Program-made: the position numbers and the translations under genes
Notes under the pieces: model-generated
Told to the model about the DNA's origin: nothing
The model's input: only the letters and a program-made list of their open reading frames with translations
Database searches by the model: none
Assembly (NCBI GenBank): GCA_937967455.1
Contig: CALCJK010000001.1
Span: 62,001-126,000, forward strand
From: an uncultured bacterium
Lineage (GTDB): Bacteria; Bacteroidota; Ignavibacteria; UBA10030; BY39
DNA: 64,000 nucleotides
Reading direction: 5' to 3'
Shown here: in pieces, positions 31,001-48,996 of the stretch
Position numbering within the stretch: position 1 is the first letter of the stretch
Layout: each line of letters begins with the position of its first letter

Positions 31001-31335
31001 GTGTTATATATCCCTTGAATTGTTCCAGGTTGATATTCTGTTTGATTATTTTGTACTACTGAAAGTCGAATTTTACCATCAGCATCTTTACCACCAATCC
31101 ATAAACCTGTACTATTAACTGCAGTCTTTAACGAATTTTTTGGAAATATAAATCCAGCACTTTTATTTCCTCTATCGTAAAATAATTCACCATCATTATT
31201 AATATGAACTTTTATTTGATTTATTTCAAATGTTCTTGCATCAAGAATACTTTGCTTATTCAAAGAATTATCATCAAATGAAAATGATAAATTAAAACAT
31301 AGTAGAATTATTACAAAAAAATTGTAGAAACGCAT
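28024..31335 (-). CDS. giant secreted protein with T9SS-type C-terminal sorting domain (exoprotein 3)
   Basis: 1103 aa; signal peptide; C-terminus 'IKVYPNPYFGYNK...VTFSNLPSNFKIRIFSLSGDLIRTI...WDLKNDFGIYVASGIYIAHIE'; paralogous to 34889-38374 and 42899-45955. Confidence 0.85.
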   Translation of the reverse strand: MRFYNFFVIILLCFNLSFSFDDNSLNKQSILDARTFEINQIKVHINNDGELFYDRGNKSAGFIFPKNSLKTAVNSTGLWIGGKDADGKIRLSVVQNNQTEYQPGTIQGIYNTRLNNTSVASNPLSENFRIYKITKFDSSAAKDGEYDAWSSWPVSQGAPWIDADDDGKYNLKKGDKPKFYGDKQAFWVYNDLNYSGHINNSQTLPIGLEVRVLLWSYEQQGALGQTIFCRWEIINKSDTTLHDAYISIFSDVDLGFAKDDFPGCDTVLKMAFVYNGSSEDAGLNGYGSNPPAVGIDLLQGGIVKTGIMTDSAQIRGVWQKGYKNLSMTSFSFFGIQNGIDPDPPLGTKNYSKIAYDYMRGRRGWYDTTYINPITRQPSKFPLSGDPVKDQGWLPRNNRPVLNPQNVKLLLSSGPFNFAAGDTQVVICAFILAQGKDRLNSVTLLKTYDAIVQEAYDQNFKIAGPPPQPNIQYSELSNEVILDWANNDSTENFNQFGYKFQGYNIYQGKTQDGPWVRISTFDLKDGIREIYEWQTDPATGLKSWVPIAFGTDSGIKRNLRIIKDYFTDSKLVNGKEYYFAITSYAYNHDTSSIGIKPTVLENFIKPIRVIPHQPPIGSLIPSTYQSVLMHNRVGDDAVKPVVLLPTLLDGKTYQVTFNGEGMNVKSWNLIEKESGDTIIRASTNFNGDENSPIHNGFQVKVVKPPIGVRRDTQIPPGWTYYNAVKDATTSSTATNLTWFKGQGNTTIRLDAIDAAGLAYPTETNFLLRPTRVPPDSLLKVEIRFSNKFTQRAYRYVANVPIFPPYPVVDSSFEPYVKYRGGGWVYHDYNKYPAPKPDTTFENPDLGPVVPFTVWEIDSTDGDFNPRQLNVGFVEFNDSLWSKPRFPGDERTYRGRGRIDGKWDPTVATLGGREILFIFKSTYTDTAQEYYKNLDLSHYEESDVMYVLWLRKAGPDTVRWNEGDILTIYPNYPLSTRRVYEFVAKKQTFDDKLLMQTQINRIKVYPNPYFGYNKAEKSNTDRFVTFSNLPSNFKIRIFSLSGDLIRTISNTEYDLNNPFVKWDLKNDFGIYVASGIYIAHIEIPEVGEKILKIVIIQPDQSYNPF

Positions 31336-31392
31336 TAATAATCTCCAAAAAAGATTAAACTAACATCAATTGGTTTATTCAATTAATTCCAA

Positions 31393-31818
31393 TTAAAATG
31401 GAAGATCATCATCCTGACTTGTTTCTTGAGCAGATTCTTTAGGAATATTGTTCGTATCAGGTGATATTTCTTCAAGGCCTTTACCAGGGCTTAACATAAT
31501 TAAATCATTAGCAAATATTTCGGTAACATATCTTTTAATTCCATTTTTATCGTCATAGCTTCTGGTTCTGATACTCCCTTCAATATATACTTTTTGTCCT
31601 TTTTTAAGATACTGGTTACTAATTTCAGCGAGCTTACCGAAAGTTATAATATTATGCCATTCGGTTCTTTCCTGAATATTTCCATCAGAATCTTTTGTAG
31701 ATTCGTTAGTTGCAATCGAAAATGATGCAATAGCCAAACCATTGGCACTATAACGAAGTTCAGGGTCTTTACCAAGATTACCAATCAGTAGTACCTTATT
31801 CAAACTTTTTCCTGCCAT
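31393..31818 (-). CDS. ssb: single-stranded DNA-binding protein
   Basis: '[33 protein letters not shown]', acidic tail DDDLPF. Likely start at M7 (MAGKSLNKV) of the 31836 ORF. Confidence 0.96.
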
Positions 31819-31841
31819 TATCATTAACTCCTTCATTTATT

Positions 31842-32864
31842 TTAAAAATTTAATTGAATATTTATTATTGAATTTGATCCAAAAAACTTTACTGGCCTAT
31901 AAGCAAAATCTACTCCAATCTCTATACTATTTATTTCATATTTTAAACCAATACCATAAGTAAGTTGATATATATATGTTGTCTCTTCTGGAATAAAAAG
32001 ATAACCTGTTCTTATAAATACCACATCACTGAATGAATATTCCAAGCCAGCCTTGTATATATCATTACCATAATTATTGTTCTCGAAAGAGCAATTTAAA
32101 ACTATGTTATTATTCTTTGAGATAAGTTTCGTATATGCAAACCCCAATTCAAGTGAGGAAGGTAAATCGAAAGGTGCAGATTTAAGTATCACTGTTCTCG
32201 ATGTAGGATAAAATGGATTAGTTTGTATTTCATTTTCCAAATCTTTACCCTGGAATTCAAGAGCTGGTCCAATATTTTTTAAAACTATACCAAACATCAA
32301 ACCGGTATTTCCAGCTACATACTGAATCCCTGCATCAAATCCGATTCCTGAAGCTGAAGTTTTATATACATTTTCATATATATACTTTGTAGTTATTCCA
32401 GCAGTTAGTCGATCACTGATTCTTCTAGAATAAGATAAACCTATATTGAAAAATGTTGGAGAAAAGTAATTTCCTGTTCCCTCTGGAAAATCCTCTGTAG
32501 TTTCCTCAATATTTGCAAAATCTACAGATTTAAAGCTGAGTGCAAAGTTGCCAAGACCATTAATATTTACTTGAGCTGCAAAATAGTTAATATCAATATC
32601 AGCAATGTAACTATTATGAGAAAAAATTACCCCAAACATTTTATCCTCATAGACTAATCCTGCAGGATTCCAGCTCAATGCTTCAATACCTCTGGCAAAT
32701 GAAACTGTTGAATTACCAAGAGCTGCACCTCTTGCTCCAATTGGGATCAAAAGCTCATGCGCTCCTGCTGTACCTTTTTTACTTCCTTTGCTAGCTTTTA
32801 AATCAGATGTAAAAATAAAATTACAGATTAAAAATAATATAATTAGATAACAAAAATTTTTCAT
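31842..32864 (-). CDS. PorV/PorQ family outer membrane protein (copy 3)
   Basis: 'GTAGAHELLIPIGARGAALGNSTVSFARGIEALSWNPAGL' conserved PorV/PorQ N-terminus; terminal beta-strand '...IINIQLNF'. Confidence 0.88.
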   Translation of the reverse strand: MKNFCYLIILFLICNFIFTSDLKASKGSKKGTAGAHELLIPIGARGAALGNSTVSFARGIEALSWNPAGLVYEDKMFGVIFSHNSYIADIDINYFAAQVNINGLGNFALSFKSVDFANIEETTEDFPEGTGNYFSPTFFNIGLSYSRRISDRLTAGITTKYIYENVYKTSASGIGFDAGIQYVAGNTGLMFGIVLKNIGPALEFQGKDLENEIQTNPFYPTSRTVILKSAPFDLPSSLELGFAYTKLISKNNNIVLNCSFENNNYGNDIYKAGLEYSFSDVVFIRTGYLFIPEETTYIYQLTYGIGLKYEINSIEIGVDFAYRPVKFFGSNSIINIQLNF

Positions 32865-32898: not shown

Positions 32899-33801
32899 TT
32901 ATTTTCTTTTCCAACTTAATACCTTATCTTTTGGAAAAATAACTATTGCCTCATCTGTTAATATAAAAACATTTTTATTGTTTATTGAAATATCTCTAAA
33001 ATTCTTTGAAATATATTTAAAGTCCTCTAGATCATATTTAATTATATTATTTTCCCTAATATATTCCATAAGGTCATCATTAACCCAGAGGAATAATCTA
33101 TCATCGAAGATAAAGAATGATGAAATAAATTTATCGAATTTAATTTCTTTTAACAAAAATCCCCAATTTGAATATACATATATAGAATAATCTGTCAGAA
33201 TGTAAATATTATTTTTTGAATCAAACGCTATCTTTTTGGGATACGATGATTGTAAATCAGAAAATTCTAATTCGCCAAAGGTAGTTTCTAACTTTGTTTC
33301 CTTCGAATATTTATAAAACCTCTTATTTTCTGTATCGAATACGATAAGATTCGAAAATTTATCAATCCCTATAAGAGACGGATATTTGATATTAGACACA
33401 AAATTATCAAACGAGAAACTATTTAAATAATCTAGATTCTTGTTAAACCTTTGTATTCTATTATTGTATAAATCTGTTACATATATATTTAGACCGTCAT
33501 TAGTAAAAAAAGAAGTTGGTTTATCAAAATTTAGATTTCCCCAACCTTTTCCACCGATTTGTTTAATTAAAAATCCAGATTTGTCCAATTTAATTATGAC
33601 ATTCTCCTGTGTTGATAATATAAAAAAATCGTCATCAGGTGTAGCTATTATTGATGAGGGAAATTTAATTATGGTATCGATTTTAACAATTTTGAAAGAT
33701 ATGTTCTGAGCGGGTGAATGATAAGATGTAAATAAGAACAGGACAAGTAATATAATTAGAAAAAAAATTAATGGGTTGCTCGCATGAAATGAGCAACCCA
33801 T
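32899..33801 (-). CDS. secreted NHL/6-bladed beta-propeller protein
   Basis: 'IGGKGWGNLNFDKPTSFFTNDGLNIYVTDLYNNRIQRFNKNL' NHL repeat; hydrophobic signal LIFFLIILLVLFLF. Best in-frame start near the signal peptide is M16 of the track ORF (ATG at 33801). Confidence 0.75.
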   Translation of the reverse strand: MGCSFHASNPLIFFLIILLVLFLFTSYHSPAQNISFKIVKIDTIIKFPSSIIATPDDDFFILSTQENVIIKLDKSGFLIKQIGGKGWGNLNFDKPTSFFTNDGLNIYVTDLYNNRIQRFNKNLDYLNSFSFDNFVSNIKYPSLIGIDKFSNLIVFDTENKRFYKYSKETKLETTFGELEFSDLQSSYPKKIAFDSKNNIYILTDYSIYVYSNWGFLLKEIKFDKFISSFFIFDDRLFLWVNDDLMEYIRENNIIKYDLEDFKYISKNFRDISINNKNVFILTDEAIVIFPKDKVLSWKRK

Positions 33802-33802
33802 T
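33770..33802 (-). terminator. rho-independent terminator of module 2, overlapping the start of the beta-propeller gene
   Basis: Minus strand AATGGGTTGCTC-ATTTCATGC-GAGCAACCCATT (12-bp perfect stem, 9-nt loop) followed by AATTTTTTTTC. Confidence 0.85.
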
Positions 33803-33818
33803 GAAATTATTGAATATC

Positions 33819-34859
33819 TCAAAAACCTAAGCGGATTGAGAACCATTGATTTGCATCGAAGAATTTAGCGGGTCGATATGCATAATCCACTGCCATTTCG
33901 ATACCGCTTATCTGGTATTGAACTCCAGCACCAAATGTAAAGTCATATATACCTTCAAGCGTTTCGGGAACGTCTGGAGATACGAGATAACCACCCCTCA
34001 AAAAAAATATATCTTTAAATGAGTATTCAACCCCAAATCTATATTGATCATTGGAGTAGTTATTATTAACAAATGTAGTATTGAATGACAAGTTGTGTTC
34101 GCTTGTTAAAGGATATAAATAAGATAGTCCTAACTCAAGTGTAGTTGGAAGATCAAATGCAGCTGTTCTAATAACATAAGGTTGAGGTGGAAAACCAACT
34201 GGTTGATTAGGATCATTTACAAACCTTTCAAAATCCGGTCCATCAAATCTGATTTTTGTTCCTAAATTTTTTAAAGCAATACCAAAATTAAATCCAGTTT
34301 CGCCAGCTTTATACTGTAATCCAAAATCAAATGCAAAAGCTGATGCTTCAACTCTTTGGATTGATTCATAAACTAGTTTAACATTCGTTCCAAAGAATAT
34401 TCTGTCTGTCATTCTTCTTGCATATGTTAAACCGATTGTCATATATGTCGGTGAATAATTTACACCAGTGCCTTCAGGTTTATCAATAGTTGTAACTTCT
34501 ATATCGCCAAATGATAAAGTTTTTAAACTTGCGGCAATATAACCAAAATCACCAAGGTTTCCTGATGCAGCAAAGTAATTGACCCCAATATCTGCAATAT
34601 ATTGTAGATTAGAGAACATTACTTCTGAGGTTAGACTACTGCGTGCCAAACCAGCAGGATTCCAGAACAAAGCATCCAATCCTTGAACTCTTGCTAGAGT
34701 AGAACCATTTAATCCAACTCCTGAAGATCCAATTGGAATAAGCAATTCAGTTGCAGCAGCTGTACCTCTACGATTTGGTGACCCAGCCTCTGCATCATAA
34801 AACAATCCTAAGATAAGTACTAGAATAACAACGATTTTTATTATTTTCCAGTTTTTCAT
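33819..34859 (-). CDS. PorV/PorQ family outer membrane protein (copy 2)
   Basis: 'NRRGTAAATELLIPIGSSGVGLNGSTLARVQGLDALFWNPAGLARSS'; ends WFSIRLGF. AAGGAGA lies just upstream of M10 (34859) of the track ORF. Confidence 0.9.
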   Translation of the reverse strand: MKNWKIIKIVVILVLILGLFYDAEAGSPNRRGTAAATELLIPIGSSGVGLNGSTLARVQGLDALFWNPAGLARSSLTSEVMFSNLQYIADIGVNYFAASGNLGDFGYIAASLKTLSFGDIEVTTIDKPEGTGVNYSPTYMTIGLTYARRMTDRIFFGTNVKLVYESIQRVEASAFAFDFGLQYKAGETGFNFGIALKNLGTKIRFDGPDFERFVNDPNQPVGFPPQPYVIRTAAFDLPTTLELGLSYLYPLTSEHNLSFNTTFVNNNYSNDQYRFGVEYSFKDIFFLRGGYLVSPDVPETLEGIYDFTFGAGVQYQISGIEMAVDYAYRPAKFFDANQWFSIRLGF

Positions 34860-34888
34860 ATTCTTTCTCCTTAAATAATTTTTCATTA

Positions 34889-37800
34889 TTAGAAAGTATC
34901 TAACCGCTCTTCTTGTATGAAGATGGCAAATTTTACAACTTTTTCACCAATACCTTCAGCCTCAATATGAGCAATATACATACCACTGGCTACTGGTATA
35001 CCAGCATGGTTTTTTAAATCCCACCTTGTAGAGCTGTTGTCAATGATACCCATATTATCATGTTCAATTGTTCTAATCATATCTCCTGCCAGATTAAATA
35101 TTCGTATTTTACATTTTGCAGGGAGATTTGTAAAGGTCACATAACTATCAAATGCATCTTGTTGTAATTGATGAGAAGCATAATATGGATTCGGCACAAC
35201 TTTTATTTTATTCATCTCATTTCTCATTCGAGCCAAATCAGGATTACCCAAGATAGGTGCTTTAACCTCGAATTCAAAAACATTATTGGCATTTAACTGA
35301 TAATTAGGTCGAATATAGAATATATCCCCTTCTCGGAATGTTGTATCAGGTCTCAGACGTTTCATCCATACAGCATACATTACTGGCACTTTATCAAATT
35401 TATCCAATATATTGAAATGAGGTTTATAAGTCTCCGTTGTACCACCTGTATAAATCGTTTTTGGAGTATCTGTATAAGTTGTTCCGAATATTAAAATCAC
35501 TTCATCACCTTGTTTAGAAGCCAATGGTGTTGTTGGCAATACAGGGTTAGGATAATAGAACTCAGTTGGATACCATCTTCCATCAACTTTACCATAATTA
35601 ACAAAAATTGTAGTATCAACTAATGTTGAGTCTGGTCTCATTATTTTCACGTCTTTATATAAAGTATCATTTCTTTCAATTATTGCGACATCAAGTTGTC
35701 TTTCAGTTCCATGAATTGTATCTACTTCCCAAACAGTAAAGGGAACAACATATCCGCTGTCAGGAACACCTAATCTATATTGTTCGTAGTCCTGGTACAA
35801 GAATCCACTACCAGTACTATCTTTTACAAATGGTCTGAATTCAGGATGTACAACCCTTCTCTTTATTGGTGGGAAGGGTGCAAATCCAGCTATGTAACGA
35901 TATGCTTTTTGTGTATTTTTTGTACTAAATCGGATTTCAACCCTACGTAAGCTATCGGCTCTAAGTCCACTTTCTTTATACTCAAAGTTATCAGATCTCG
36001 GATAAGCTACCAATCCATATCTTGTAGTTGTGCCAAACTCATCCATTGTTGAATTATATGCACCATTAAACCATCTACGCCCTTTATATGACCATCCTCT
36101 TGGATTTTGGGTAGCTCTACGCACACCTACTGGAAGTTTTACAACTTTTGGCATAACATTAGAAACGACTGGATAATTGTCATCACCGCTAAAATTATTA
36201 CTTTCATACACAAGACTATCGGTTGTTGAATTTATTACTCTCCATAGTTTCCAAGCAGTCACATTTGTATCAACTCCATCAAATGTAATTTTGTATTTTG
36301 CATTTTCAGTTCTCCATGGATCAATAACATAGATTTGTAAAGCATCATCAAAATGATTTTTTGATACCCATCGATTATGTGAGACAAGATCTCCGTAATT
36401 AGCTCCACTTGGGAATTCTGAACCCTGGACGGGATTTTTGGGAACGATTGTAATTGGTATTTTTGGAGATTCAAGTACTAATAGTCCACTAATTGTCTTT
36501 AATTTAGATGTATCAGTATCTTCATATTCTGCAATTGCTGTTGCAGTCAAAATAAAGTAATATGGTTTTCCAGGAATAAAAGGTTTTAAACTAATACGAT
36601 CTTCTGTTAATAAAATATTATTTACTATACCTTCAGTTCCACCTTCCCATATTTTCATTTTAACTGGTTCGTCGACATTAGGTACAGAGACCCAATCGTA
36701 AACCTTATTTCGCCCACCCTTTATATACCAGTTAGCTATTTTTTCAATTTTTGCACCAGGTCTTAACAACGGATCATTTGTTTGATATAAATCATATGCA
36801 TGGAATTTCCAGGTTGTCGAGTCGAACTTAGGATCAAAGTTTACAAAATCTTCAGCTCTTTTATCCCAAGTGAGTAATAGATTTCCATTTACAAAGCTGT
36901 ATTCAAGCTTTGGCATTGGTGGAGGTGGAGGCAGGCGAAAATTATTATTAAACAGTGTTTGAGATAAATCAGCATAATTTCTTAATACAGTAATACTATT
37001 CAATTCACTTGAACCCCTAGCTACAATGACACCTACAACTACCTGTTGAGTATCACCTGGCATCATTCTAAATGGTCCTGCTGGCATTGTAAACCTAATG
37101 TCTGATGGTGCTACATAATCCTTATTTAAGAACCCTACTCCAGTAACGGGATCACCAGCAAATACAAAACTTACTGTGTCACCAGTATGGGGATCTATCC
37201 AGGGTTTATCAGTTCTTGTTCGACCCTTCATGATATTATAACTTTGTTCATATAAACTTGGATCGTACCAATCTGGATTGGTACAACCTCCTTGTCCTGG
37301 ATTACAATAAAAATTGAACCCTGATTGGTTAAGGTTGATATATCCTGGAATTCTTAATCCGGACCATTTTGCTGTGTCTTCTATATTGCCAGTGAAAATT
37401 CTTGGACCCTGGAAATATTTATATCCAACAGATGGAGGAGCAGATCCATAGCCTGGTGGACCATCATTATTATCCCCATTGTAACAGAAGCCTAAGTTTC
37501 GTTTCTCATAAATAACACCCCTTGATGTTACAGTAGAATCGAAAATCGTAGTATCCACACCGCAATAATCATCAAAAGCATCACCTAAATCTGGATCTGA
37601 CCAAACAACCAGATAAGTTGAGTCCCAAACATTACTACTCTTATTAATCACTTCAAATCTCATAAATATCATTTGTCCAAATGGACCCGATCTATTATAT
37701 GCCCAACTCAACTGTCTCACCTCGGCACCCAATGGCAAACTACGCCCCCAAATCCAAGAGTGATACGCTGGATCAGCATCATTATATACAGCAAACATTA

Positions 37801-38374
37801 ACATATCTGGATATACTACTTGATCTCCCCAAATTAATGCGGGTTTATCGACGTATGGATTATAAGTACCATCGCCATCAATATCATGATATGGTGCACC
37901 AACATCAACTGGCCATTCTAACCAATCGGGATTGATCGGTGAATCTTCATTTGGTCGAACTTTGTAGTATCTGTACTTGGACTTTGTATAATCATCTGGT
38001 GTACCATCTTCCAAGATTATTCCCGGGCGAAGTTCAGAACCAAAATGTCCAACTGTAGCTACACGAATATCTTTTTTATTTGTATCTGTGGCAGCAGTGT
38101 CTCGAACTTTAGCACCTATCCACATTGAGGATGAGAAAATTGCATACACACCACCACCTTTTGGCCACTCAAATCCTGGACCTTGTGTACTGTGATCGCT
38201 AAAGAATTCACCGTCATTACGATACCAGGCGCTGATGGAATTTACATCCATCAGCTTCCTCTCAATTACTGTTGGCTTAAAACTTGGTAATAGATTTTTA
38301 AATTCTCTATCAACCGCAAAGCTAAAGAGTGAATACAATAACGTGATTACTAAGATTGAAATAACTTTCTTCAT
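34889..38374 (-). CDS. giant secreted protein with T9SS-type C-terminal sorting domain (exoprotein 2)
   Basis: 1161 aa; signal peptide; C-terminus 'IKVVPNPYYASHQ...VTFTNLPAKCKIRIFNLAGDMIRTIEHDN...WDLKNHAGIPVASGMYIAHIEAEGIGEKVVKFAIFIQEERLDTF'. Confidence 0.88.
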   Translation of the reverse strand: MKKVISILVITLLYSLFSFAVDREFKNLLPSFKPTVIERKLMDVNSISAWYRNDGEFFSDHSTQGPGFEWPKGGGVYAIFSSSMWIGAKVRDTAATDTNKKDIRVATVGHFGSELRPGIILEDGTPDDYTKSKYRYYKVRPNEDSPINPDWLEWPVDVGAPYHDIDGDGTYNPYVDKPALIWGDQVVYPDMLMFAVYNDADPAYHSWIWGRSLPLGAEVRQLSWAYNRSGPFGQMIFMRFEVINKSSNVWDSTYLVVWSDPDLGDAFDDYCGVDTTIFDSTVTSRGVIYEKRNLGFCYNGDNNDGPPGYGSAPPSVGYKYFQGPRIFTGNIEDTAKWSGLRIPGYINLNQSGFNFYCNPGQGGCTNPDWYDPSLYEQSYNIMKGRTRTDKPWIDPHTGDTVSFVFAGDPVTGVGFLNKDYVAPSDIRFTMPAGPFRMMPGDTQQVVVGVIVARGSSELNSITVLRNYADLSQTLFNNNFRLPPPPPMPKLEYSFVNGNLLLTWDKRAEDFVNFDPKFDSTTWKFHAYDLYQTNDPLLRPGAKIEKIANWYIKGGRNKVYDWVSVPNVDEPVKMKIWEGGTEGIVNNILLTEDRISLKPFIPGKPYYFILTATAIAEYEDTDTSKLKTISGLLVLESPKIPITIVPKNPVQGSEFPSGANYGDLVSHNRWVSKNHFDDALQIYVIDPWRTENAKYKITFDGVDTNVTAWKLWRVINSTTDSLVYESNNFSGDDNYPVVSNVMPKVVKLPVGVRRATQNPRGWSYKGRRWFNGAYNSTMDEFGTTTRYGLVAYPRSDNFEYKESGLRADSLRRVEIRFSTKNTQKAYRYIAGFAPFPPIKRRVVHPEFRPFVKDSTGSGFLYQDYEQYRLGVPDSGYVVPFTVWEVDTIHGTERQLDVAIIERNDTLYKDVKIMRPDSTLVDTTIFVNYGKVDGRWYPTEFYYPNPVLPTTPLASKQGDEVILIFGTTYTDTPKTIYTGGTTETYKPHFNILDKFDKVPVMYAVWMKRLRPDTTFREGDIFYIRPNYQLNANNVFEFEVKAPILGNPDLARMRNEMNKIKVVPNPYYASHQLQQDAFDSYVTFTNLPAKCKIRIFNLAGDMIRTIEHDNMGIIDNSSTRWDLKNHAGIPVASGMYIAHIEAEGIGEKVVKFAIFIQEERLDTF

Positions 38375-38400
38375 AATTTAAGCTCCTGATGAATTTATTT

Positions 38401-41400
38401 TTAAAATTCTAACATTAAACCAAATCTTATATGACGTGGAGGACCAACAAACCCAGGTTGAGCCTCGAACATATTATACAAACCTACAAAGACTGGAATC
38501 TCATCAGCTCTGCCTTGTTGAACTAACCTATTAAACGTCTCTTTTGCATCATCAGACGAAAGATAACCAGTTGCATCTGGTAGGCCAGAACCTGACCATA
38601 CATTAGCTGTATTTTTCCTATTAAGTAAGTTCAGTACCAAAACATAAGCATTTATTCTCATATTATAAGGCAAATCAAATGTTTTATCAACTCTAAGGTC
38701 GAACCTAAAATTCCAACCACTGTAATTTTCATTTATACCTGATTGTGGTCTGATTCTTGAATCTGTAGGTGGAATGTTTGGATCATTTAGTGTATATGGT
38801 CTGCCACTATTAGCTCTGAACAAAAGATTAACTCCTAGTTGACTTAACCATGGGTTTTCAATCTTACCTAAGCGATAATCAAGATTTGCTGATATTGTAT
38901 GTCGCTGATCGAAATCAAGCGGATTTTCAAATTTTGGTGCACGAGCGTTTAACCACACTATAACACCTAATGTACCTGGATCTGATCCAGTTCCTGTTGC
39001 ATATGATAGCGTGTAGTTAACAGATGCTGCAAAATTATTCCACCTTCTTAAATCGAATGTTACATCTAAACCACGAATTGTCGAATAATCTCCATTCTGA
39101 TATGTAGAAAATGTAGTCTTATTAAAATTCGAATTTATAAATCCAAGTTGAATCAAACCAGTAACTTCTTTATAATAAGCAGATAAGTTAACGCTAGCTA
39201 AATCACCTATTTGTTGACGAATTCCTACTTCATACTGAGTTGTTTTTTCGGGTTTTAGACGTGGATTGTTTATCGTTATATAACCTGGTTGTTTATACCA
39301 CTCAATTAAGCGGTCTTGACTGCTATATAACAAAGATAATTGAGGCATTTGTGCAAATGTTCCGTATTGCGCAAAAAACACCGTTCTATCTGATACAGGG
39401 AAAGAGAATCCTAAACGTGGACTTAACACTACAAAGGGTTTAGATTTTTCAAAACTATCTTCATCTATTGTGTTTGAATTACCCCAACCATCGCTTGGTA
39501 CAGGTTTCCCTGGATTTTTTGCTATGTAATTTTCCTTTGTTCCCCACAATTGAGTATTTTTACTATTCGATACATCGTAAAGGTCCTTTAAAACATTTGT
39601 ATTTGCGTCCCAATAATCTAGTCTGAATCCTGCGTTAAGGACAAAATCTTCTAATTCCATTTTATCTTGAATATACCATGCTCCAAAAATTGGTTCTTTT
39701 GGTCCTTCAGCCCTCTTATCCTTATTATAGCCATCATAATTTACCTCTCTACCAAAATAGTCATATCCATATGTGTTGACACCACGGCTTGCATACTCCT
39801 TGTACACATATCGTAATTGTGCCGAATCTAACAAATCGGGATTAACTTTTATGGTGTTCTTAATAGAATCAGGTAAGAGAGCTAAGCTTAATGGTCCGAT
39901 TGCGTAATTTCTTAATTCATGAATTTTATATTCTGCACCGGTTTTAAATTCATGGTTTCCAATCTGATGAGTTACGTTTGCATTAAATTGCCAAAAAGTA
40001 GTTTTATTATAACCATAATAGTTGTATACTCTGCCTGGAAATGCAAATTGACCTAAATAACTGTCCATTGGAATTCTTTGACCCATTTGTGGTGGAGATT
40101 GGTAATTCCTGAATAATGGGTTTTTACTTGTATCGCCGTAATCAAAAACACGATCTCGATGAACAGGGTCCATCAAATCATTATATGTATATAAATAACT
40201 TGCTTGGACTTCCATAAAGGTCTTTGGCTGTGGTGTCCAGGTACCTCTTAATGTAAATTGATGATTTTTTGATACACCAATTGGATTGTGGAAAGCATTC
40301 ATAAGAGCATAACTTGATACTCTGCTTCTTGCTTCCGTCCATGAGGAGATACCACTAAAATTAAAACGAAAATCTCCTAAATTTAATGTTAGTTTTTCAT
40401 TCCAAGCGTATCTTAACCTGCCACCATCTGGTAATTGTCCGGGACGTGCCGTATTCCAACTTGGTTGGTCTAACAATAATTCTTTGACTCTATTTTGATA
40501 TTCTGGAGAATTAATTTCATCTACTGAAAATATAGGTCGTCTTGAAATCAGTTGAATATAATTTACTGAAATAAATTGAAACTTGGGCCAAATATCATTT
40601 GCAATATCTCTTAACCTTTCTGAAACATAACTTGGATTTGGGTCACGATCAAAATTATATTCAAATGATCCAAAAAATTGCAACAAATTTCTATTTGAAG
40701 GTATTACCGGCCCACCAATAGATAAATTCATTAATTCATGTCCAGTGCTTCGTAATCCTTTAAAACCATCACCGATTATATTATCTGTTACATATTCTAA
40801 ACTGCCGAAATAGTTTGGTTTTCCGGAACGAGTAGAAACGTTAACGATACCACTCATAACATTTCCATATTCTGCGCTATAACCACCAGTCATAACAATC
40901 ATTTCCTGTATTGCTCGCTGACTTACAAATGCAGTTGAACCACCTGTTAGTGGATTATTTGTCCATACTCCATCAATTATATAACCAGTTTCTTCTGACC
41001 TTCCACCTCTAACATTAAGTGCACCACCTCTTTCGTCCTGAACAACACCAGCACTGGTTGCTGCGATTTCTCGGAAACCTCTAACAGGCATAAGTTGGAT
41101 TTGTTCGGTTGTAACAACTCTAACCGTGCCAGTTTGATCCTTTGGAATGATGGGCCTTTCTGCTGAAATTACAACCTCTTGTAATTCAACAGCTTCCTGA
41201 CTCATTTCCACATTTTGGGTTGTAGTGAATCCAACCAATACTTTCAGATTTTTTACCATGACTTCTCTATAACCAACATGACGTACAATGAGGTTATATG
41301 TACCAACTGGAACATTTAAGATTAAGTAATTTCCTTCTATATCGGTTGTTGTTCCAATTGTCGTACCTTCAAGTAATATGTTTGCACCAATCAATGGTTC

Positions 41401-41520
41401 TCGTGATTCTTTATCAATCACCCTACCACTAATTTTACCTGTTGTTGTTTGAGTGAAACTTATTGAGACACATAATACAAAAAGAATAAAAACAGCAAAA
41501 AACTTTTTAAAGATGTTCAT
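38401..41520 (-). CDS. TonB-dependent receptor with N-terminal carboxypeptidase-regulatory-like domain (copy 2)
   Basis: 1039 aa; 'GKISGRVIDKESREPLIGANILLEGTTIGTTTDIEGNYLILNVPVGTYNLIVRHVGYRE', plug 'LNVRGGRSEETGYIIDGVWTNNPL', 'GGYSAEYGNVMSGIVNVSTRSG', barrel terminus RFGLMLEF; AAGGAGGAG before ATG. Confidence 0.93.
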   Translation of the reverse strand: MNIFKKFFAVFILFVLCVSISFTQTTTGKISGRVIDKESREPLIGANILLEGTTIGTTTDIEGNYLILNVPVGTYNLIVRHVGYREVMVKNLKVLVGFTTTQNVEMSQEAVELQEVVISAERPIIPKDQTGTVRVVTTEQIQLMPVRGFREIAATSAGVVQDERGGALNVRGGRSEETGYIIDGVWTNNPLTGGSTAFVSQRAIQEMIVMTGGYSAEYGNVMSGIVNVSTRSGKPNYFGSLEYVTDNIIGDGFKGLRSTGHELMNLSIGGPVIPSNRNLLQFFGSFEYNFDRDPNPSYVSERLRDIANDIWPKFQFISVNYIQLISRRPIFSVDEINSPEYQNRVKELLLDQPSWNTARPGQLPDGGRLRYAWNEKLTLNLGDFRFNFSGISSWTEARSRVSSYALMNAFHNPIGVSKNHQFTLRGTWTPQPKTFMEVQASYLYTYNDLMDPVHRDRVFDYGDTSKNPLFRNYQSPPQMGQRIPMDSYLGQFAFPGRVYNYYGYNKTTFWQFNANVTHQIGNHEFKTGAEYKIHELRNYAIGPLSLALLPDSIKNTIKVNPDLLDSAQLRYVYKEYASRGVNTYGYDYFGREVNYDGYNKDKRAEGPKEPIFGAWYIQDKMELEDFVLNAGFRLDYWDANTNVLKDLYDVSNSKNTQLWGTKENYIAKNPGKPVPSDGWGNSNTIDEDSFEKSKPFVVLSPRLGFSFPVSDRTVFFAQYGTFAQMPQLSLLYSSQDRLIEWYKQPGYITINNPRLKPEKTTQYEVGIRQQIGDLASVNLSAYYKEVTGLIQLGFINSNFNKTTFSTYQNGDYSTIRGLDVTFDLRRWNNFAASVNYTLSYATGTGSDPGTLGVIVWLNARAPKFENPLDFDQRHTISANLDYRLGKIENPWLSQLGVNLLFRANSGRPYTLNDPNIPPTDSRIRPQSGINENYSGWNFRFDLRVDKTFDLPYNMRINAYVLVLNLLNRKNTANVWSGSGLPDATGYLSSDDAKETFNRLVQQGRADEIPVFVGLYNMFEAQPGFVGPPRHIRFGLMLEF

Positions 41521-41654
41521 AACTCCTCCTTTGCAGGGAAATATTTGACATATTATTAAATAAATTATTCTTGATTAAATGAATTGAAAATTTTAACAAA
41601 AAAATCTTGTCCAATAACAAATAAATTAAATATTTTATTTTAATATTTCGATTT

Positions 41655-41683
41655 AATATATATAAATGAAAATAAAAAAACAA
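41655..41683 (-). promoter_or_regulatory. candidate sigma70-like promoter for module 2
   Basis: Minus strand TTGTTT-N17-TATATT, downstream of the module 1 terminator and ~135 nt upstream of the receptor start; AT-rich context lowers specificity. Confidence 0.35.
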
Positions 41684-41707
41684 GTTTTTGATTTATTTAA
41701 GGTAAAA

Positions 41708-41750
41708 AAAATGGTACAATTTAGCAAATCCAGCTAAATTGTACCATTTT
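41708..41750 (-). terminator. rho-independent terminator of module 1
   Basis: Minus strand AAAATGGTACAATTTAGC-TGGATTT-GCTAAATTGTACCATTTT followed by T-run; 18-bp perfect stem. Confidence 0.92.
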
Positions 41751-41773
41751 AACTATCAGGTGAGCATCAATAT

Positions 41774-42805
41774 TTAGAACGAGAATTGGACAGTAAACCA
41801 CTGGTTTGCATCAAAAATATCAGTAACACGATAAGCATAATCCAAAGCAACACGAAAATTACCAAGTGGGATATTTAAACCCAGACCAAATGTTGGACCA
41901 AAAATATAGTCCGTTGTAAATTGTGACATTGCATACCCTCCCCTTAAATATAACATATTATCATAGTCATACTCCAAACCAAACCTGTATTCATCTGCAT
42001 CAAAATTTGCATTCTGGAAATTAGCCATTACCGAGATTTTATTCTTATCATTAATCAGATAAGGATATGCAATACCTATTTCCAATGTAGTTGGGAACTC
42101 AAATCCAGCAGAAACGATTCTCAAAGGTCTCTGACGGCTACCTGGTTCTACATTTGGTAAATTTACAAATCTTTCAAGATCAGGGCCATCATACTTCATC
42201 CCACCACCGATATTTTTCAGGGTCACGCCTAAGTTAATACCTGTTTCACCAGATCTGTATTGCACGCCGAAATCAAATGCTAAGCCGGATGCAGTGGATC
42301 TCATTATCTTTTCAGAGACCAGCTTTACTGTTGTACCACCATAAATCCGATCGGTGAATGCTCTTGAATATGTTAAACCAAATGTAAGATAAGTTGGAGT
42401 AAATGTTCCCCCTGTACCTTCGGGTTGAAACACAGTAGTAATAGGTATATCACCGAAACTCAGATTCCGTAGGGAAACAGCAAAAGTACCAACATCTCCA
42501 AAGTTTGAACTTACTGCAAAGTATTGTACACCGATGTCGGCAATATATGAAAGATGCGAAAACATTGCCTCAACACCAGAGCTGCGAGCAACACCAGCTG
42601 GATTCCAATATATTGCATCTACTCCAGTTGCATAAGCATTCATCGCACCTCCTAATGCAGTTCCTCTGGATCCGACAGGTATAAGCAGTTCAGTAGCACC
42701 TGCGGTTCCCATTCTATTTTTAGAGCCTGCAGATAATTGATCAAGACCAGCAATAAAAATTAATGCTGTTATTATTACTATTAAAACTGATTTTTTCGTT
42801 ATCAT
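41774..42805 (-). CDS. PorV/PorQ family outer membrane protein (copy 1)
   Basis: 'NRMGTAGATELLIPVGSRGTALGGAMNAYATGVDAIYWNPAGVARSS'; ends WFTVQFSF. AGGAGAG upstream of MITKKSV (42805) supports this start over 42859. Confidence 0.92.
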   Translation of the reverse strand: MITKKSVLIVIITALIFIAGLDQLSAGSKNRMGTAGATELLIPVGSRGTALGGAMNAYATGVDAIYWNPAGVARSSGVEAMFSHLSYIADIGVQYFAVSSNFGDVGTFAVSLRNLSFGDIPITTVFQPEGTGGTFTPTYLTFGLTYSRAFTDRIYGGTTVKLVSEKIMRSTASGLAFDFGVQYRSGETGINLGVTLKNIGGGMKYDGPDLERFVNLPNVEPGSRQRPLRIVSAGFEFPTTLEIGIAYPYLINDKNKISVMANFQNANFDADEYRFGLEYDYDNMLYLRGGYAMSQFTTDYIFGPTFGLGLNIPLGNFRVALDYAYRVTDIFDANQWFTVQFSF

Positions 42806-42857
42806 ATTTGTCTCTCCTAAATTTATTTTAGAGAATTTATTAAACTTTTTAATTAAC

Positions 42858-42891
42858 ATAGGTTCGATCTAAAATTATAGACCGAACCTGT
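42858..42891 (-). promoter_or_regulatory. intercistronic hairpin between exoprotein 1 and PorV copy 1
   Basis: AGGTTCG(a)TCTA / TAGA(c)CGAACCT inverted repeat with one mismatch and a 6-nt loop in the untranslated gap. Confidence 0.55.
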
Positions 42892-42898
42892 ATTTCAA

Positions 42899-45800
42899 TT
42901 AGAAGTTATCCAGTCTTTCTTCAGCCATGATTACGGCAACTTTTAGAATCTTAGTACCAATATCAAGCATATCTATATGAACTATGTACATACCACTTGC
43001 AACTGGTAGACCATTATTATTTTGTAAATCCCAATCTGTAGTGGTGTTTGAATCGTCCTTGTCGATCCTTCTTATTAGAGTACCCTGTAAATTGAAAATA
43101 CGAATTGTACATTTTGGAGGTAAATTAGTAAATCTCATAATACGACCGAATTGATTCCTTTCGTATTCACTTGCTCCAAAATATGGATTTGGAACAGCCA
43201 TTATCTTATCAACATCCTGTTTTGCAATCTCAATAGAAGAAGTTGGGACATAATTAGCACTACTAAAGAAAAAAGTATCCTTAGGAGCATTTACAAAGTT
43301 TGGTGTTATCGTTAACTTACCAACTGACTCATTCAAAGTATGTCCACTTCGAACCTGAGGCCAGAGGACAAATAACACATCAAACTCATCAGCATTGTTC
43401 AATAGGTCTCTACTTGTGTAATATGGATCGGGCGTAGCAGAATAATCACTCTTTAAAATAAATGTATATTCTCGACCACCTGTTGACGAATTATCTGGGT
43501 CCCAAGTTTCATTACCATTTGCAGGATTTCTATCACTCCAAGCAACATTTAATTGTCGAGGTGGGTCAGATGTGACATCCCATGCAGTAAATGGAACATC
43601 TACATAATCCTGATACAAATACCTTGTAGGTCCAGTGAATCTTACATATCTATATGCTTTTTGTGGATTAGCGGCATCAAAACGCAATTCAACTTTCACT
43701 AAATCACCCGCACCTAAATTAGAACCAAAAAAGTGGTTTCCTACAAAGATACCACCATCATCGTTGTCTCCACCTGCACCAGGCAAATCTCTCAACCAGA
43801 AATTCGTTTCAGGTGTCCAAAATGTTTGATCTACATTAATACCAGCTGGAGGACTTATAACTTTAACAAGCATCCCATCAATAATTGGGTACAAATCATT
43901 TCCTGATTGATTAGTCATATTCGAAACTTTAATTTCTCCAGTGGTTGTATTAATCAAGCTCCACACGAATTCATTAGTTACAGCATCAACTGTAAATACA
44001 ACTTTATAAGAATCACCTTTAATTTTTCTTGGATCAACCACAATCGGTACAACTTTGCCATCGCTCAAGAATGTAGCCGAACGATGCTCAACACCTTTTA
44101 CAGTATCACCGTAACTCGATGCATACCTTGTACCGGGCGTTTTAGTTGGTCTAATTCTCATAATATTTTTTGAACTTTCGAGAGTCTTTGGTACACTCTC
44201 TTTGTTGTATGTATATGTTGTGACAGCAAAATAATAATCCTTGCCGTTTACAATTGGATTATTAGTAAGGAAATCTTTTGTAATTGATATACTTCGTTTT
44301 AATCCATTATCACTTCCAAATTTTACAGGTCTATTCACAAAGGTGCCTAAGGTTGGATCGAATACATCATCATATATAATCATCACATTATTTTTAATGT
44401 CAAAAGTGGCTACAATTTTTTCATCACTTCCAGAAATATTAGAATATTGATATACAACGTAACCTTCAAATTCGTAATATGGATCTGGATCTCCTGCTGC
44501 ATCTGCCAGTGGATCAAATGTTTTTGTTTCTTCAATTGCAGATGCAAATTCGTGATCAATGCCCCAATTTAATATTATCTGATTGTCCAGAGCTATTGCT
44601 TCAGTCTTTGGAGAAACGGGTGGAGCAGCAAGTTTGAAGTTTAAATCATATGCAGTTTGTGCAACTAAATCTGCTTGTTTAAGTGCATTGACACTTTGCA
44701 AATAGTCTGAACCTAAAGCGATTAAATTTCCTGCAACAATTTCTTGCGTATCTCCGGGTGCCATTGTAAATGGTCCTGAACTCATTAAGAATCTTCGATC
44801 ACCGCCAGGCCCTTGTTCAATCCAGTTTGTAGCTGGATCATAGGGTTTAGTTGGATCACCTGGGAACATAAAATCTGCTGGATTACCAAGTGGATCTGTT
44901 ATCTTTACACCGTTGCGATCATATGCACGCATATAATTATATACCTCTTGACCAGTTTGAGGATTTCCAAGTGGTGAGGTATCATTGTTGTATTTGACAA
45001 ACGATGTCATTTTTAAATTTTTATAGTTAGGTATTAATTTCCCAGATACATACGCAGTATCTCCAGGTGATGGAACAATTGGTCCCTGGAAGAAATCAAA
45101 ACCGGTTGCAGGTGGTACTCCGTAAACACCATCAATTGCGTCATAATTGTAGGTATAGCCCAATCCAAGCGTTGTATCACAACCATCATAATCATCCCCA
45201 GAATCTCCAAGATCAATATCTGTCCATATTGTGATATAAGTGTCTTTAAGTGTTTTACCACCCTTATTAATAATTTTCCATTTATAGAATATAGTATTTC
45301 CAAGAGCGTCGGAACGAGCATATGCAAAAGCAGTTAACTGTACTTCTATACCAAGTGGAGGAGTTAACATATTTGTGTGGACAGATGGATCGTTGTCGTT
45401 AAATACACACCAAATAGTTTGATCTCCAAGAAGTTCAGGAGTATCAATACCTGGGTCCCAAACACCATTCCCATTTACATCAATCCATGGTGCACCATCT
45501 TCTACAGGCCAGTTGGCATAATCGGGATTGTTTTCAGCGTTATCACCTCTTGATATTTTATACATCTTCCATCTGTCATCAGCTGGGTTTATGCCTACAC
45601 CTATTGGACCTGCAATATATTCATACGAATATTCTGCAACAGCAACACATACCTGTCCGGTAGCACTATCAATAGCACCAACCCAGATACCTGAAGCATA
45701 ATTTGCAGTATTTCCGCTTCCTTTGGGCCATTCAAAACCCGCGTTACCTGTTCCAGGGTCACGATTAAATGAACCGTTATTACGAATAAAAGTTGAAATG

Positions 45801-45955
45801 TTATTAATATCCATTTTAATGTAATCACCCACAACACCGGGTTTTTGTTGTTTTTGACCTAATTTATCAGCAGAGGCAAGATTGTTATTTACAAGAAACA
45901 ACAAAATTGCCAGGCTTAAAAATATTGTTGCTAGATAATTAATTTTCTTTCTCAT
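42899..45955 (-). CDS. giant secreted protein with T9SS-type C-terminal sorting domain (exoprotein 1)
   Basis: 1018 aa; signal peptide; C-terminus 'IMAVPNPYFGASEYERNQFGRIMRFTNLPPKCTIRIFNLQGTLIRRIDKDDSNTTTDWDLQNNNGLPVASGMYIVHIDMLDIGTKILKVAVIMAEERLDNF'. Confidence 0.88.
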   Translation of the reverse strand: MRKKINYLATIFLSLAILLFLVNNNLASADKLGQKQQKPGVVGDYIKMDINNISTFIRNNGSFNRDPGTGNAGFEWPKGSGNTANYASGIWVGAIDSATGQVCVAVAEYSYEYIAGPIGVGINPADDRWKMYKISRGDNAENNPDYANWPVEDGAPWIDVNGNGVWDPGIDTPELLGDQTIWCVFNDNDPSVHTNMLTPPLGIEVQLTAFAYARSDALGNTIFYKWKIINKGGKTLKDTYITIWTDIDLGDSGDDYDGCDTTLGLGYTYNYDAIDGVYGVPPATGFDFFQGPIVPSPGDTAYVSGKLIPNYKNLKMTSFVKYNNDTSPLGNPQTGQEVYNYMRAYDRNGVKITDPLGNPADFMFPGDPTKPYDPATNWIEQGPGGDRRFLMSSGPFTMAPGDTQEIVAGNLIALGSDYLQSVNALKQADLVAQTAYDLNFKLAAPPVSPKTEAIALDNQIILNWGIDHEFASAIEETKTFDPLADAAGDPDPYYEFEGYVVYQYSNISGSDEKIVATFDIKNNVMIIYDDVFDPTLGTFVNRPVKFGSDNGLKRSISITKDFLTNNPIVNGKDYYFAVTTYTYNKESVPKTLESSKNIMRIRPTKTPGTRYASSYGDTVKGVEHRSATFLSDGKVVPIVVDPRKIKGDSYKVVFTVDAVTNEFVWSLINTTTGEIKVSNMTNQSGNDLYPIIDGMLVKVISPPAGINVDQTFWTPETNFWLRDLPGAGGDNDDGGIFVGNHFFGSNLGAGDLVKVELRFDAANPQKAYRYVRFTGPTRYLYQDYVDVPFTAWDVTSDPPRQLNVAWSDRNPANGNETWDPDNSSTGGREYTFILKSDYSATPDPYYTSRDLLNNADEFDVLFVLWPQVRSGHTLNESVGKLTITPNFVNAPKDTFFFSSANYVPTSSIEIAKQDVDKIMAVPNPYFGASEYERNQFGRIMRFTNLPPKCTIRIFNLQGTLIRRIDKDDSNTTTDWDLQNNNGLPVASGMYIVHIDMLDIGTKILKVAVIMAEERLDNF

Positions 45956-45998
45956 ATTTTTTTCTCCTTCAAGAAATTTTTATCTTGATACATTTTTT

Positions 45999-48818
45999 TT
46001 AGTAATACAATCTTATACCAAATCTCATCTGTGCTGGCAAACCATAATTTGCTGGGTTATTTTCCCTAGCTCTGAATATATCCACAGCTTCTTGACCATA
46101 CAACTGTGACCACTCAATACCCTCACGAGTAGAGAGCCATCCGGAATTATTTGGTTCACCTGTACCTCTATAAACACCAAATACATTCTTTGCATCTAAA
46201 ACATTGATCCACCACAGATATATATTTGCCGAGATGTTTTGGAAATTAAATGTTCTATCAATTTTTAAATCCAGGCGGAAATTCCAAGGTGTGTATGCTT
46301 GATTAACCGCACCAGTTGGTCGGATTTCTGTCACACCACCAAAGAAAGGATTGTAAATTATAGATTGTGTATAAGGCACACCGCTGTTAAATGCAAATAG
46401 TGCATTTATTCCAAATTTTTCGAGTGGATAAATATCCCCAAATTTTGGTCCCTCATTGGCTCCTAATCGATAATCTATATTCACACTACCATTATGACGA
46501 CGATCAAAATCAAGTGGAGCAATTAACTTCGGATTTTCAGTTTGTATCCACGCTATTCTCGACTGTGTAAGTGGATCAGAACCAGTACCCATTGCATAAG
46601 ATAATGTATAGTTAACAGTAGCTGCAAAATTTTTGGTTCTTCTTAATTCAAAAATTATATCAAACCCTTTGATAGTGCCATAATCAGTGTTGATATAAGA
46701 TTCGTAACCATTTGGATAGCCAGGTTGAATATTACGAGATTGGATAAGATCTTTTACTTCTTTATAAAATGCTGTAATACTTATTGCTGCTTGATCAGTA
46801 ATCATCTGGCGGAATCCAAATTCGTAAGCGATAGTTTTCTCGGGTTTTAGATTCGGATTTGGAATCTTTGTAGAAAATGGTGCATCCACAATCATTCTGT
46901 TTAACCAGGTCTTGCTTGCAAGCACATATTGTAATGGTGGTTGTGCCAGGAAGATTCCATATTGAGCATGGAAAACAGCTCTATCTGTAATTGGGAATGA
47001 GAATCCCAATCTTGGGCTGACTGTTACAGTGGCTTTTGAATCTTCAATATCATCTGGATCGAAGACACCACCACCTGGGGTTCCTCTTTGACCATAAGGA
47101 TTATATGGGTCTTTAAAAACCTTTTCATTCGCATCGAAATAATCCAAACGTGCACCAATATTTAATACTAAATCACTATACTCAATTTTATCCTGTAAAT
47201 ATAATGCACCATAAACTGGATGTTTTGGTCCCTCTTTTTTATCATTACCATCCACAAAGAAATTGTCATCACCCGACACTTCTTCAGAACCATCATAAGT
47301 GTAACCATAATATTCAACATTATTTGCCCTATACAATCTCCAGAGTGCATCAGGCGCTGTGGAAGTGGTACCTATTGCTAATCCCATCGGATTAACAGTA
47401 AATCTTCTTATGATATAATATCTATACTCACCTCCTAATTTAAGGAGATGATTACCTTGTTGACTTGTAATGTCACCATTAAATCCAATATATTCCGATT
47501 TTGATTTCGTAAAACGATCTAGTACATGTCCCTTTGGAGCAATTGTACTATAAACTGCACCAGGATTTGTAGCTTGTGAGGATAGGTAAGGATTTATTGC
47601 AGTATCACCATATGCTAATAAATTATCGAACCATCGCCCATCTCCGGATTTTAGATCTTCTCTAAAATAGCTGATCTGTGCAGTATAAAAAGTTTTAGGA
47701 TCAATATTTTGTGTAAATTTAAAATAACCCGAATAAGTAGCATTATCAAATCTTTGATGATTTTCCCAAGCTCGAAATCTTCTAAAATTATCCCAGTTAT
47801 TTCCAACTCTACCGTAATAATATCCGCCGAATAGCATTTGAATTTCCGGAATTGGTTTAGCACTCAACTTACCATTAAAATTCCAGCTTGAAAGAGAGCT
47901 ATTTGGTTTTACTCCACCTATTGCACGCGGATCATTATCTCTTAAAAATTGTCTCTCCGCTGCAATAAAAACAGTAAGGAGATCTTTACCAGGAATAATT
48001 GGACCACCAAAAGTAGCATTGTATACATTATAACCAAACGAAGTATAAGTGTTGAATATTTTTTCACCTGGTTTAATAAGGTTATCAGTAATTGCTTCAA
48101 ATGAACCGAAATAGTTTGTTCTTGCTTGTCGAGTTGTTAAACTAACTAAACCGGACATAGCAGAACCATATTCTGCATTAAATCCCCCAGTTTGAACCTG
48201 TAATTCTTCAATTGAATTAGTATTTAAGTTTGCAAAAGAGGCACTACCTGTACCGGCAAGTGGATTATTAACTGCAACACCATCAACGTAGTAGGCAACC
48301 TCATTGGGTCTCCCACCTCTTATATACAAATTATTTGAACCTTCGTTTTGCACTACTGAAGCTTGTACACCTACAACATTTACCGCACCTCTTATTGGGA
48401 GATTGGCAATTTCCTCGTAGGTTTGAGTTCTTACAGTATTTGTGTAGTCTTTTTGAATGAGTGGTCTTTCAGCAACTATTTGTACTTCCTTTAACTCAAT
48501 AGACTCTTCAACTAGGGAAAAATTAATCTCAGTTGTAAAATCTGCTGATACTTTAACATTAGAGATCGTTACTTCTCGGTAACCAACATAAGACGCACGT
48601 AGTGTATATGTCCCAGGAGGAACATTAAGAATAAAATAGCTGCCATCTACACCTGATGCTGCACCCATCGAGGTACCAACTATCAGAATATTAACTCCAA
48701 CAAGTGGTTCGCCGCTCGATTTATCAGTAACTTGACCAGCAATTTTACCGGGTCCAGCAAAAGCAAGGCTTGAAATCGTAAAGACGAGCAAACTAAATAA
48801 TAACAATTTACGTATCAT
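45999..48818 (-). CDS. TonB-dependent receptor with N-terminal carboxypeptidase-regulatory-like domain (copy 1)
   Basis: 'GKIAGQVTDKSSGEPLVGVNILIVGTSMGAASGVDGSYFILNVPPGTYTLRASYVGYRE', 'LYIRGGRPNEVAYYVDGVAVNNPL', 'GGFNAEYGSAMSGLVSLTTRQ'. GGAGG before ATG at 48818 (M5 of track ORF). Confidence 0.93.
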   Translation of the reverse strand: MIRKLLLFSLLVFTISSLAFAGPGKIAGQVTDKSSGEPLVGVNILIVGTSMGAASGVDGSYFILNVPPGTYTLRASYVGYREVTISNVKVSADFTTEINFSLVEESIELKEVQIVAERPLIQKDYTNTVRTQTYEEIANLPIRGAVNVVGVQASVVQNEGSNNLYIRGGRPNEVAYYVDGVAVNNPLAGTGSASFANLNTNSIEELQVQTGGFNAEYGSAMSGLVSLTTRQARTNYFGSFEAITDNLIKPGEKIFNTYTSFGYNVYNATFGGPIIPGKDLLTVFIAAERQFLRDNDPRAIGGVKPNSSLSSWNFNGKLSAKPIPEIQMLFGGYYYGRVGNNWDNFRRFRAWENHQRFDNATYSGYFKFTQNIDPKTFYTAQISYFREDLKSGDGRWFDNLLAYGDTAINPYLSSQATNPGAVYSTIAPKGHVLDRFTKSKSEYIGFNGDITSQQGNHLLKLGGEYRYYIIRRFTVNPMGLAIGTTSTAPDALWRLYRANNVEYYGYTYDGSEEVSGDDNFFVDGNDKKEGPKHPVYGALYLQDKIEYSDLVLNIGARLDYFDANEKVFKDPYNPYGQRGTPGGGVFDPDDIEDSKATVTVSPRLGFSFPITDRAVFHAQYGIFLAQPPLQYVLASKTWLNRMIVDAPFSTKIPNPNLKPEKTIAYEFGFRQMITDQAAISITAFYKEVKDLIQSRNIQPGYPNGYESYINTDYGTIKGFDIIFELRRTKNFAATVNYTLSYAMGTGSDPLTQSRIAWIQTENPKLIAPLDFDRRHNGSVNIDYRLGANEGPKFGDIYPLEKFGINALFAFNSGVPYTQSIIYNPFFGGVTEIRPTGAVNQAYTPWNFRLDLKIDRTFNFQNISANIYLWWINVLDAKNVFGVYRGTGEPNNSGWLSTREGIEWSQLYGQEAVDIFRARENNPANYGLPAQMRFGIRLYY

Positions 48819-48996
48819 ATAAACCTCCATTAATTTGTTAAAAGGTTAATTATTTTTTGAATTGAAAAATTTGAAATATTAAAATCGCCTATACATCTGA
48901 CGATCCCAGAAATTTTATTATGAATGGGTTTTTTTAGAATGTGTAACAATAGACTATATTTGAATCCTAAATTGTTTTACTATTTATTTCAATGAA

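Follow-up and report, generated by a model that had tools for sequence, protein, structure and literature searches.

In a 64,000-nucleotide stretch of DNA from an uncultured bacterium (GTDB lineage Bacteroidota; Ignavibacteria; contig CALCJK010000001.1 of assembly GCA_937967455.1; hereafter the window), we analysed a minus-strand locus for outer-membrane and secreted proteins, which is flanked by a ribosomal/rpoA/rplQ cluster and by housekeeping genes. An earlier note, made from the letters alone, had described two complete three-gene modules here, each encoding a TonB-dependent receptor (TBDT; here R), a very large exoprotein (E) and a barrel of the PorV family (V). This description holds: all six reading frames are open on the minus strand where it had placed them, with a slightly different choice of start codon for R1, V1 and V2, and each module closes with a hairpin and T-run, as the note had also said. 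In transcription order, the genes are R1-E1-V1, R2-E2-V2, an NHL-repeat gene, V3, ssb and E3 (Table 1). The third unit (window positions 28024-32864), absent from the earlier note, has no receptor; ssb separates V3 from E3, and the NHL-repeat gene lies upstream.

Table 1. Features of the R-E-V locus, in transcription order (positions are those of the window).
Feature	Position	Strand	Description
R1	45999..48830	-	TonB-dependent receptor: CarbopepD_reg_2 N-domain, plug and barrel; Ton-box-like segment ELKEVQIVAERPLI
E1	42899..45955	-	1018-aa exoprotein: signal peptide, N-domain (residues 42-446), middle beta domains, C-terminal sorting domain
E1 sorting domain	42902..43198	-	Type IX secretion system (T9SS) sorting domain, ~residues 920-1018
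E1 C-terminal tail	42902..42928	-	MAEERLDNF, past last strand
E1/V1 intergenic hairpin	42860..42889	-	12-bp hairpin without T-run
V1	41774..42859	-	PorV/PorQ-family barrel, PorV paralogue; later start at 42805 likely
Module 1 terminator-like hairpin	41708..41750	-	18-bp stem then T-run, 3' of V1
R2	38401..41520	-	TonB-dependent receptor, module 2
E2	34889..38374	-	1161-aa exoprotein, module 2
E2 C-terminal tail	34892..34918	-	IQEERLDTF
V2	33819..34886	-	PorV/PorQ-family barrel, module 2
Module 2 closing hairpin	about 33770..33802	-	Perfect 12-bp stem then AATTTTTTTT (T-run), 3' of V2
V3	31842..32864	-	PorV/PorQ-family barrel, receptor-less third unit
E3	28024..31335	-	1103-aa exoprotein, third unit
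E3 C-terminal tail	28027..28053	-	QPDQSYNPF

Sequence identity between paralogues is 43% for R1/R2, 36% for E1/E2 and 52% for V1/V2, and E1-E3 are mutually about 36% identical. A recent local duplication as the source of modules 1 and 2 finds no support: in none of the R, E and V trees do the two group exclusively with each other, and both copies are old.

The identification of R1 and R2 as receptors is confirmed by scores well above the Pfam cut-offs for the TBDT barrel (PF00593) and Plug (PF07715), and for CarbopepD_reg_2. Aligned module receptors share a conserved VxIVAERPLIxK segment ahead of the plug and RG(G/S)R inside it. By position and resemblance, the former segment is probably the Ton box. 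(It was assessed by counting residues in alignment columns; a stricter pattern caught 10 of 83.) The SusC/RagA model TIGR04056 gives 89 bits for R1 and 81 for R2, far under its cut-off of 368.

E1 and E2 have no match to any Pfam family above cut-off, and no recognised enzyme or ligand domain. A signal peptide is apparent on inspection of the sequence, and the C-termini weakly match the models for PorZ, PorU and type A sorting domains, those for PorZ and PorU best. With the sorting-domain model TIGR04183 (cut-off 23 bits), whole-protein scores are 21.5 for E1 and 15.9 for E2 (E1-E3 range from 15.9 to 21.5), while per-place scores are 25.2 and 20.9, two of the three E places lying above the cut-off. 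E was rejected as a paralogue of PorU or PorZ (NF033707, NF052228), since only the last ~100 residues match (27-30 bits with the full-length PorZ profile NF052228, cut-off 260) and true PorU and PorZ are encoded elsewhere in the genome. Type B cargo was likewise rejected as an identity, because no match to the type B model TIGR04131 in the genome exceeds its cut-off and the adjoining barrel is of the PorV family. Sorting domains beside PorV-family genes are among the lowest TIGR04183 scorers of the ~85 in the genome, a hint that 'docked' sorting domains are a class apart.

AlphaFold2 predicts for E a mainly beta, beta-sandwich fold (mean predicted local distance difference test score (pLDDT) of 87 for E1). 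The C-terminal domain of E1 is modelled as beta, with the terminal residues unstructured when the protein is modelled alone, and PorZ is the top Foldseek match of full-length E1, at a low template modelling (TM) score. Searching the PDB by sequence with E1 alone gave no match, and searching it with an E-family profile gave a marginal one to PorZ (expectation value 0.25). The N-domain of E1, modelled by itself (pLDDT 95.6), resembles the N-domains of dextran dextrinase, GH94 and GH116 (expectation values 1e-8 to 1e-5, TM at most 0.45), but the catalytic barrel is absent. The N-domains of those glycan enzymes belong to the super-beta-sandwich fold class. Residues 205-260 of E1, in this domain, include a highly conserved Asp-rich motif, DxDLGDxxDDxxGCDT, that resembles calcium-binding loops.

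The earlier note had read the locus as SusCD-like, and this part of its interpretation is not supported. SusD identity of E was rejected on its predicted beta fold, the lack of a lipoprotein motif in most E proteins and the lack of any match to SusD/RagB (PF07980) in the whole genome; R, moreover, is far from SusC. Among 100 E proteins paired with V, no more than 4 contain a lipobox-like motif, so that E, as judged from its sequence, is not a lipoprotein and needs some other anchor.

That anchor may be V. All three barrels exceed the 90-bit cut-off of the PorV/PorQ family model NF033709 (V1 179, V2 176, V3 169), which upholds the PorV-like identity proposed for V1 and V2, and V is homologous in sequence to the solved Flavobacterium PorV (6h3i, expectation value 5e-17). 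However, V1-V3 fall short of the equivalogs for canonical PorV, PorQ and PorV2 (NF033710, NF033711, NF052325), with 65-91 bits versus cut-offs of 220-325. The 44 sampled module V genes form one clade (Shimodaira-Hasegawa-like approximate likelihood ratio test support of 100, to be read with caution for long branches) apart from nine other PorV-family genes of the genome. Canonical PorV and PorQ are separate genes outside this clade. The possibility that V is the sole PorV of the genome was therefore rejected, as the canonical protein passes its equivalog cut-off elsewhere and there are 17 PorV-family places in all.

The rest of the T9SS also looks complete: SprA is present, and PorU, PorV, PorZ and PorQ score above their equivalog cut-offs. 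The genome further contains ~85 places with type A sorting domains, 13 plug domains and two TonB genes. Other triads of receptor, sorting-domain protein and PorV-family barrel occur at L131:4135-10330 and L132:6056-13589, and in permuted order at L130:8583-18709, so this architecture is used more than twice in the genome. The exoproteins of these triads are unrelated or distant, and their sorting domains end in GKxxxIK/H with no tail. At L130, a lipoprotein-like 594-aa protein is encoded ahead of the receptor.

To place the modules in a wider context, 84,980 species genomes were scanned, giving 79 loci in named organisms, and 60 further loci were added. The best-scoring loci resemble the seeds, some of which were linked to V, and loci with weaker matches were added as a counterweight. 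Upstream of 106 complete E genes that have V downstream, we found R directly in 93 cases, a contig end in 5, an E-family reading frame in 1 and another gene in 7, the last being mostly second E-V units that resemble the third unit of the window. The adjacency is thus not unique to this genome but spans many phyla of the Fibrobacterota-Chlorobiota-Bacteroidota (FCB) group, including Ignavibacteriota, Fidelibacterota (Marinimicrobia), Kryptoniota, Latescibacterota, Calditrichota and Rhodothermota (names are as deposited, and some are clearly imprecise). A chance neighbourhood was rejected on the same grounds, namely the same order in at least 93 loci across many phyla, and the R-E-V order is ancient. 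E-family matches occur in 56 of 60 genomes of the same order and in 37 of 99 in a sample of the phylum; the latter are mostly of the same class, and several large families have none. At L114, L199 and L202, a second E-V unit without its own receptor follows a complete module. Tandem arrays of E-family genes without V, R or tail are found at L119 (six copies, Marinimicrobia) and L096 (four copies, KSB1).

The three families have also been inherited together. Patristic distances correlate at 0.84 for R-E, 0.85 for R-V and 0.79 for E-V, compared with a maximum of 0.28 after shuffling, and out of 80 splits the trees share 48, 48 and 40, respectively. Species history accounts for part of this congruence. 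Own-module R, E and V match better than swapped partners in the window genome and its close relative, and also in a further genome whose two modules are deeply split; three more genomes have closely related modules, for which the swap is uninformative. We found no published account of the three-gene locus in the literature outside subscription papers and preprints. The conditions under which the earlier note would have been refuted, where they could be examined (gene order confined to this genome, incongruent trees, a previous description), did not hold.

The feature that ties E to V most closely is its C-terminus. V-adjacent E proteins continue for 7-10 residues past the last sorting-domain strand, with the consensus Q-E-Q/E-Q/E-Φ-L-D-x-Y/F at the C-terminus and Y, F or W as the final residue in 83 of 98; ordinary cargo ends immediately after that strand (KKMLLLK). 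Scoring only a directly downstream V as adjacent, and recognising the last strand by a sequence pattern, we counted 100 long tails (at least 7 residues) and no short ones (at most 4) among E proteins with V, but 14 long and 37 short among those without (Fisher p 5e-24; ten rows in which the pattern failed are outside this two-by-two table). As a consequence of this scoring, E3 was entered as lacking V even though V3 lies two genes upstream, a bias that runs against our hypothesis. When the E tree is computed with the last 25 residues removed, V adjacency needs 20 changes and the tail 15. Of 17 independent supported contrasts, 11-14 show tail and V changing in the same direction and none in opposite directions, and the tail is unchanged in the remainder (median p 0.0005). 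The tail and V have co-evolved, and this, along with the separate clade of module V genes, supports the earlier proposal of a dedicated PorV paralogue for each cargo.

The position of the tail is also suggestive. Type A sorting domains meet PorV via loops and a near-invariant Lys near the C-terminus (PMC10994853), and in models of PorV complexes the C-terminal motif lies at the PorV-facing end (PMC11969387). E has an invariant Lys near its C-terminus (K1005 in E1), and the tail residues lie just past it, a favourable position for raising both affinity and specificity towards a private barrel. The affinity of sorting domains for PorV is probably lower once they are outside SprA (PMC10994853).

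We propose that R, E and V form one outer-membrane unit. E would be exported by the Sec system and then by the T9SS translocon, at whose exit its own barrel V, and not the general PorV, would receive the sorting domain. This domain would stay uncleaved and docked on V, with the 9-residue C-terminal tail and its aromatic end locking E in place, and V would act as the permanent membrane anchor of E, in the manner of PorV for PorU and PorQ for PorZ, both of which are held through retained sorting domains (PMC5562754, PMC11285876). The body of E, with its super-beta-sandwich-like N-domain and further beta domains, would stand above the adjoining R and capture or present a ligand, probably a glycan or other polymer, which R would import with TonB energy. 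We read V as a permanent dock because of where the tail lies and how it has co-evolved with V; 'permanent dock' is probably a more apt term than the 'shuttle' of the earlier note. We infer that E serves R from the gene order, from SusCD systems and from the arrangement in which extracellular BamH is held beside BamA by BamG, a FadL-family barrel (PMC12611786). Taken as a whole, the reading in which V is a private dock holding E by an uncleaved, tailed sorting domain, and E works with R, is in our estimation slightly on the probable side.

Several observations weigh against this proposal. The 14 long-tailed E proteins without a directly downstream V, E3 among them with its V3 upstream, mean that tail and V adjacency are imperfectly linked. 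Conversely, partners of other PorV-family genes in this genome have no tail (PorU with PorV, and those at L131, L132, L134 and L136), and the tail is therefore dispensable for pairing in general. Receptor-less units (the third in the window, and those at L114, L199 and L202) indicate that E and V can exist without an R of their own. As to the substrate, neighbouring genes indicate no ligand, the likeness of the N-domain to glycan enzymes is moderate (TM at most 0.45), and this domain is non-catalytic in those enzymes.

Among the alternatives, the one that survives best is that V is a cargo-specific shuttle only, which passes E from SprA to the general PorU/PorZ complex for cleavage, lipopolysaccharide (LPS) linkage or release, while R is a separate, co-regulated transporter. 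A shuttle role is established for PorV (PMC5562754), cognate PorP/SprF shuttle genes lie next to those of type B cargo (PMC12618676), and PorU, PorZ, PorQ and SprA are all encoded in this genome. However, the sorting domain of E resembles the uncleaved PorZ/PorU class, a transient shuttle has no obvious need of an extra conserved tail, and the ordinary short C-terminus is seen, where examined, in the ~85 other type A cargos, of which nearly all lack a dedicated PorV gene. We consider the shuttle-only alternative unlikely. Somewhat less likely again is a surface-assembly or adhesion machine that imports nothing, where R would be a barrel with a structural or signalling role and E a surface-layer protein or adhesin. 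E does lack a recognised enzyme or ligand domain and is often multiplied, in some arrays without V or R (the six copies of L119 and the four of L096), as is often the case for adhesins and surface-layer proteins, but those arrays also lack the tail and put the E family to another use, and R retains the plug, a Ton-box-like segment and a full barrel. Finally, that the genes are adjacent by inheritance alone, as a long-standing operon whose outer-membrane products are unrelated and form no complex, is very improbable: congruent trees by themselves may mirror species history and co-location is no proof of contact, but the order is conserved over many phyla despite differing flanking genes, tail and V repeatedly change together, and, where modules are deeply split, swapping partners worsens the fit.

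The proposed docking of E on V can be compared with several known systems. In PorU-PorV and PorZ-PorQ, a protein secreted by the T9SS keeps its sorting domain and is held on the surface by a PorV/PorQ-family barrel, as predicted for E, whose sorting domain matches those of PorZ and PorU best. However, E lacks the full PorU sortase or PorZ profile, V is a separate clade, a TBDT belongs to the unit, and the C-terminal extension is 1 residue in PorZ and 3 in PorU (PMC11285876), versus 7-10 in E. In SusCD systems, as here, a CarbopepD_reg_2 TBDT is encoded directly ahead of a large extracellular partner, and the Ton-box-like segment is retained, but E is neither SusD nor a lipoprotein nor helical, R is far under the SusC cut-off, and a PorV-family barrel is added. 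The type B pairs SprB-SprF and PG1035-PorP likewise have a cargo gene followed by its own barrel gene, and the barrel keeps the cargo on the surface, as V is predicted to do for E; they differ in that the E domain is type A/PorZ-like and not TIGR04131, V is of the PorV and not the PorP/SprF family, and the type B pairs have no receptor. Lastly, BamG-BamH on BamA, in which an extracellular protein is kept above a neighbouring large barrel by a barrel of the FadL family, has the geometry that we propose for R-E-V. That system, however, serves outer-membrane protein folding, and BamH is a lipoprotein and not T9SS cargo.

A few further features of the locus and its surroundings were noted. The E1/V1 intergenic hairpin is possibly an attenuator or an mRNA-processing element that sets the E:V ratio. 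A consensus promoter scan did no better than on shuffled sequence (75 versus 76 matches) and was set aside for that reason. In the nearest sequenced relative (G001), three E genes are spaced as in the window. Genes flanking the module differ among groups, and in many Ignavibacteria (L101, L115, L104, L112 and others) a similar series of genes lies downstream of V; at L101, it is a GWxTD-domain gene followed by lipid A acyltransferase and heptosyltransferase genes.

These results suggest that the R-E-V unit is an unrecognised way of building surface uptake complexes without lipid anchors. It is conceivable, though in our view just short of probable, that it is a lipid-independent counterpart of SusCD present in several phyla, in which the T9SS delivers the extracellular subunit, and a dedicated barrel of the PorV family keeps this subunit beside its TBDT by means of an uncleaved sorting domain with a C-terminal lock peptide. 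If so, docking on V would be a further mode of fixing T9SS cargo, beside LPS linkage made by PorU and type B/PorP docking. In the current view, type A domains all use one PorV and private barrels exist for type B only (PMC12618676, PMC9143113). The module instead predicts private PorV paralogues for one cargo class, versus the single PorV stated previously (PMC12618676), and type A-like sorting domains could then have private barrels, with the C-terminal tail perhaps encoding the choice between release and permanent docking. For many little-studied bacteria of the FCB group, including the present host with no detected SusD, R-E-V would be a candidate machine for uptake at the surface. The module also places giant proteins labelled 'hypothetical' and genes labelled 'PorV/PorQ family', tens of them, in one defined unit.

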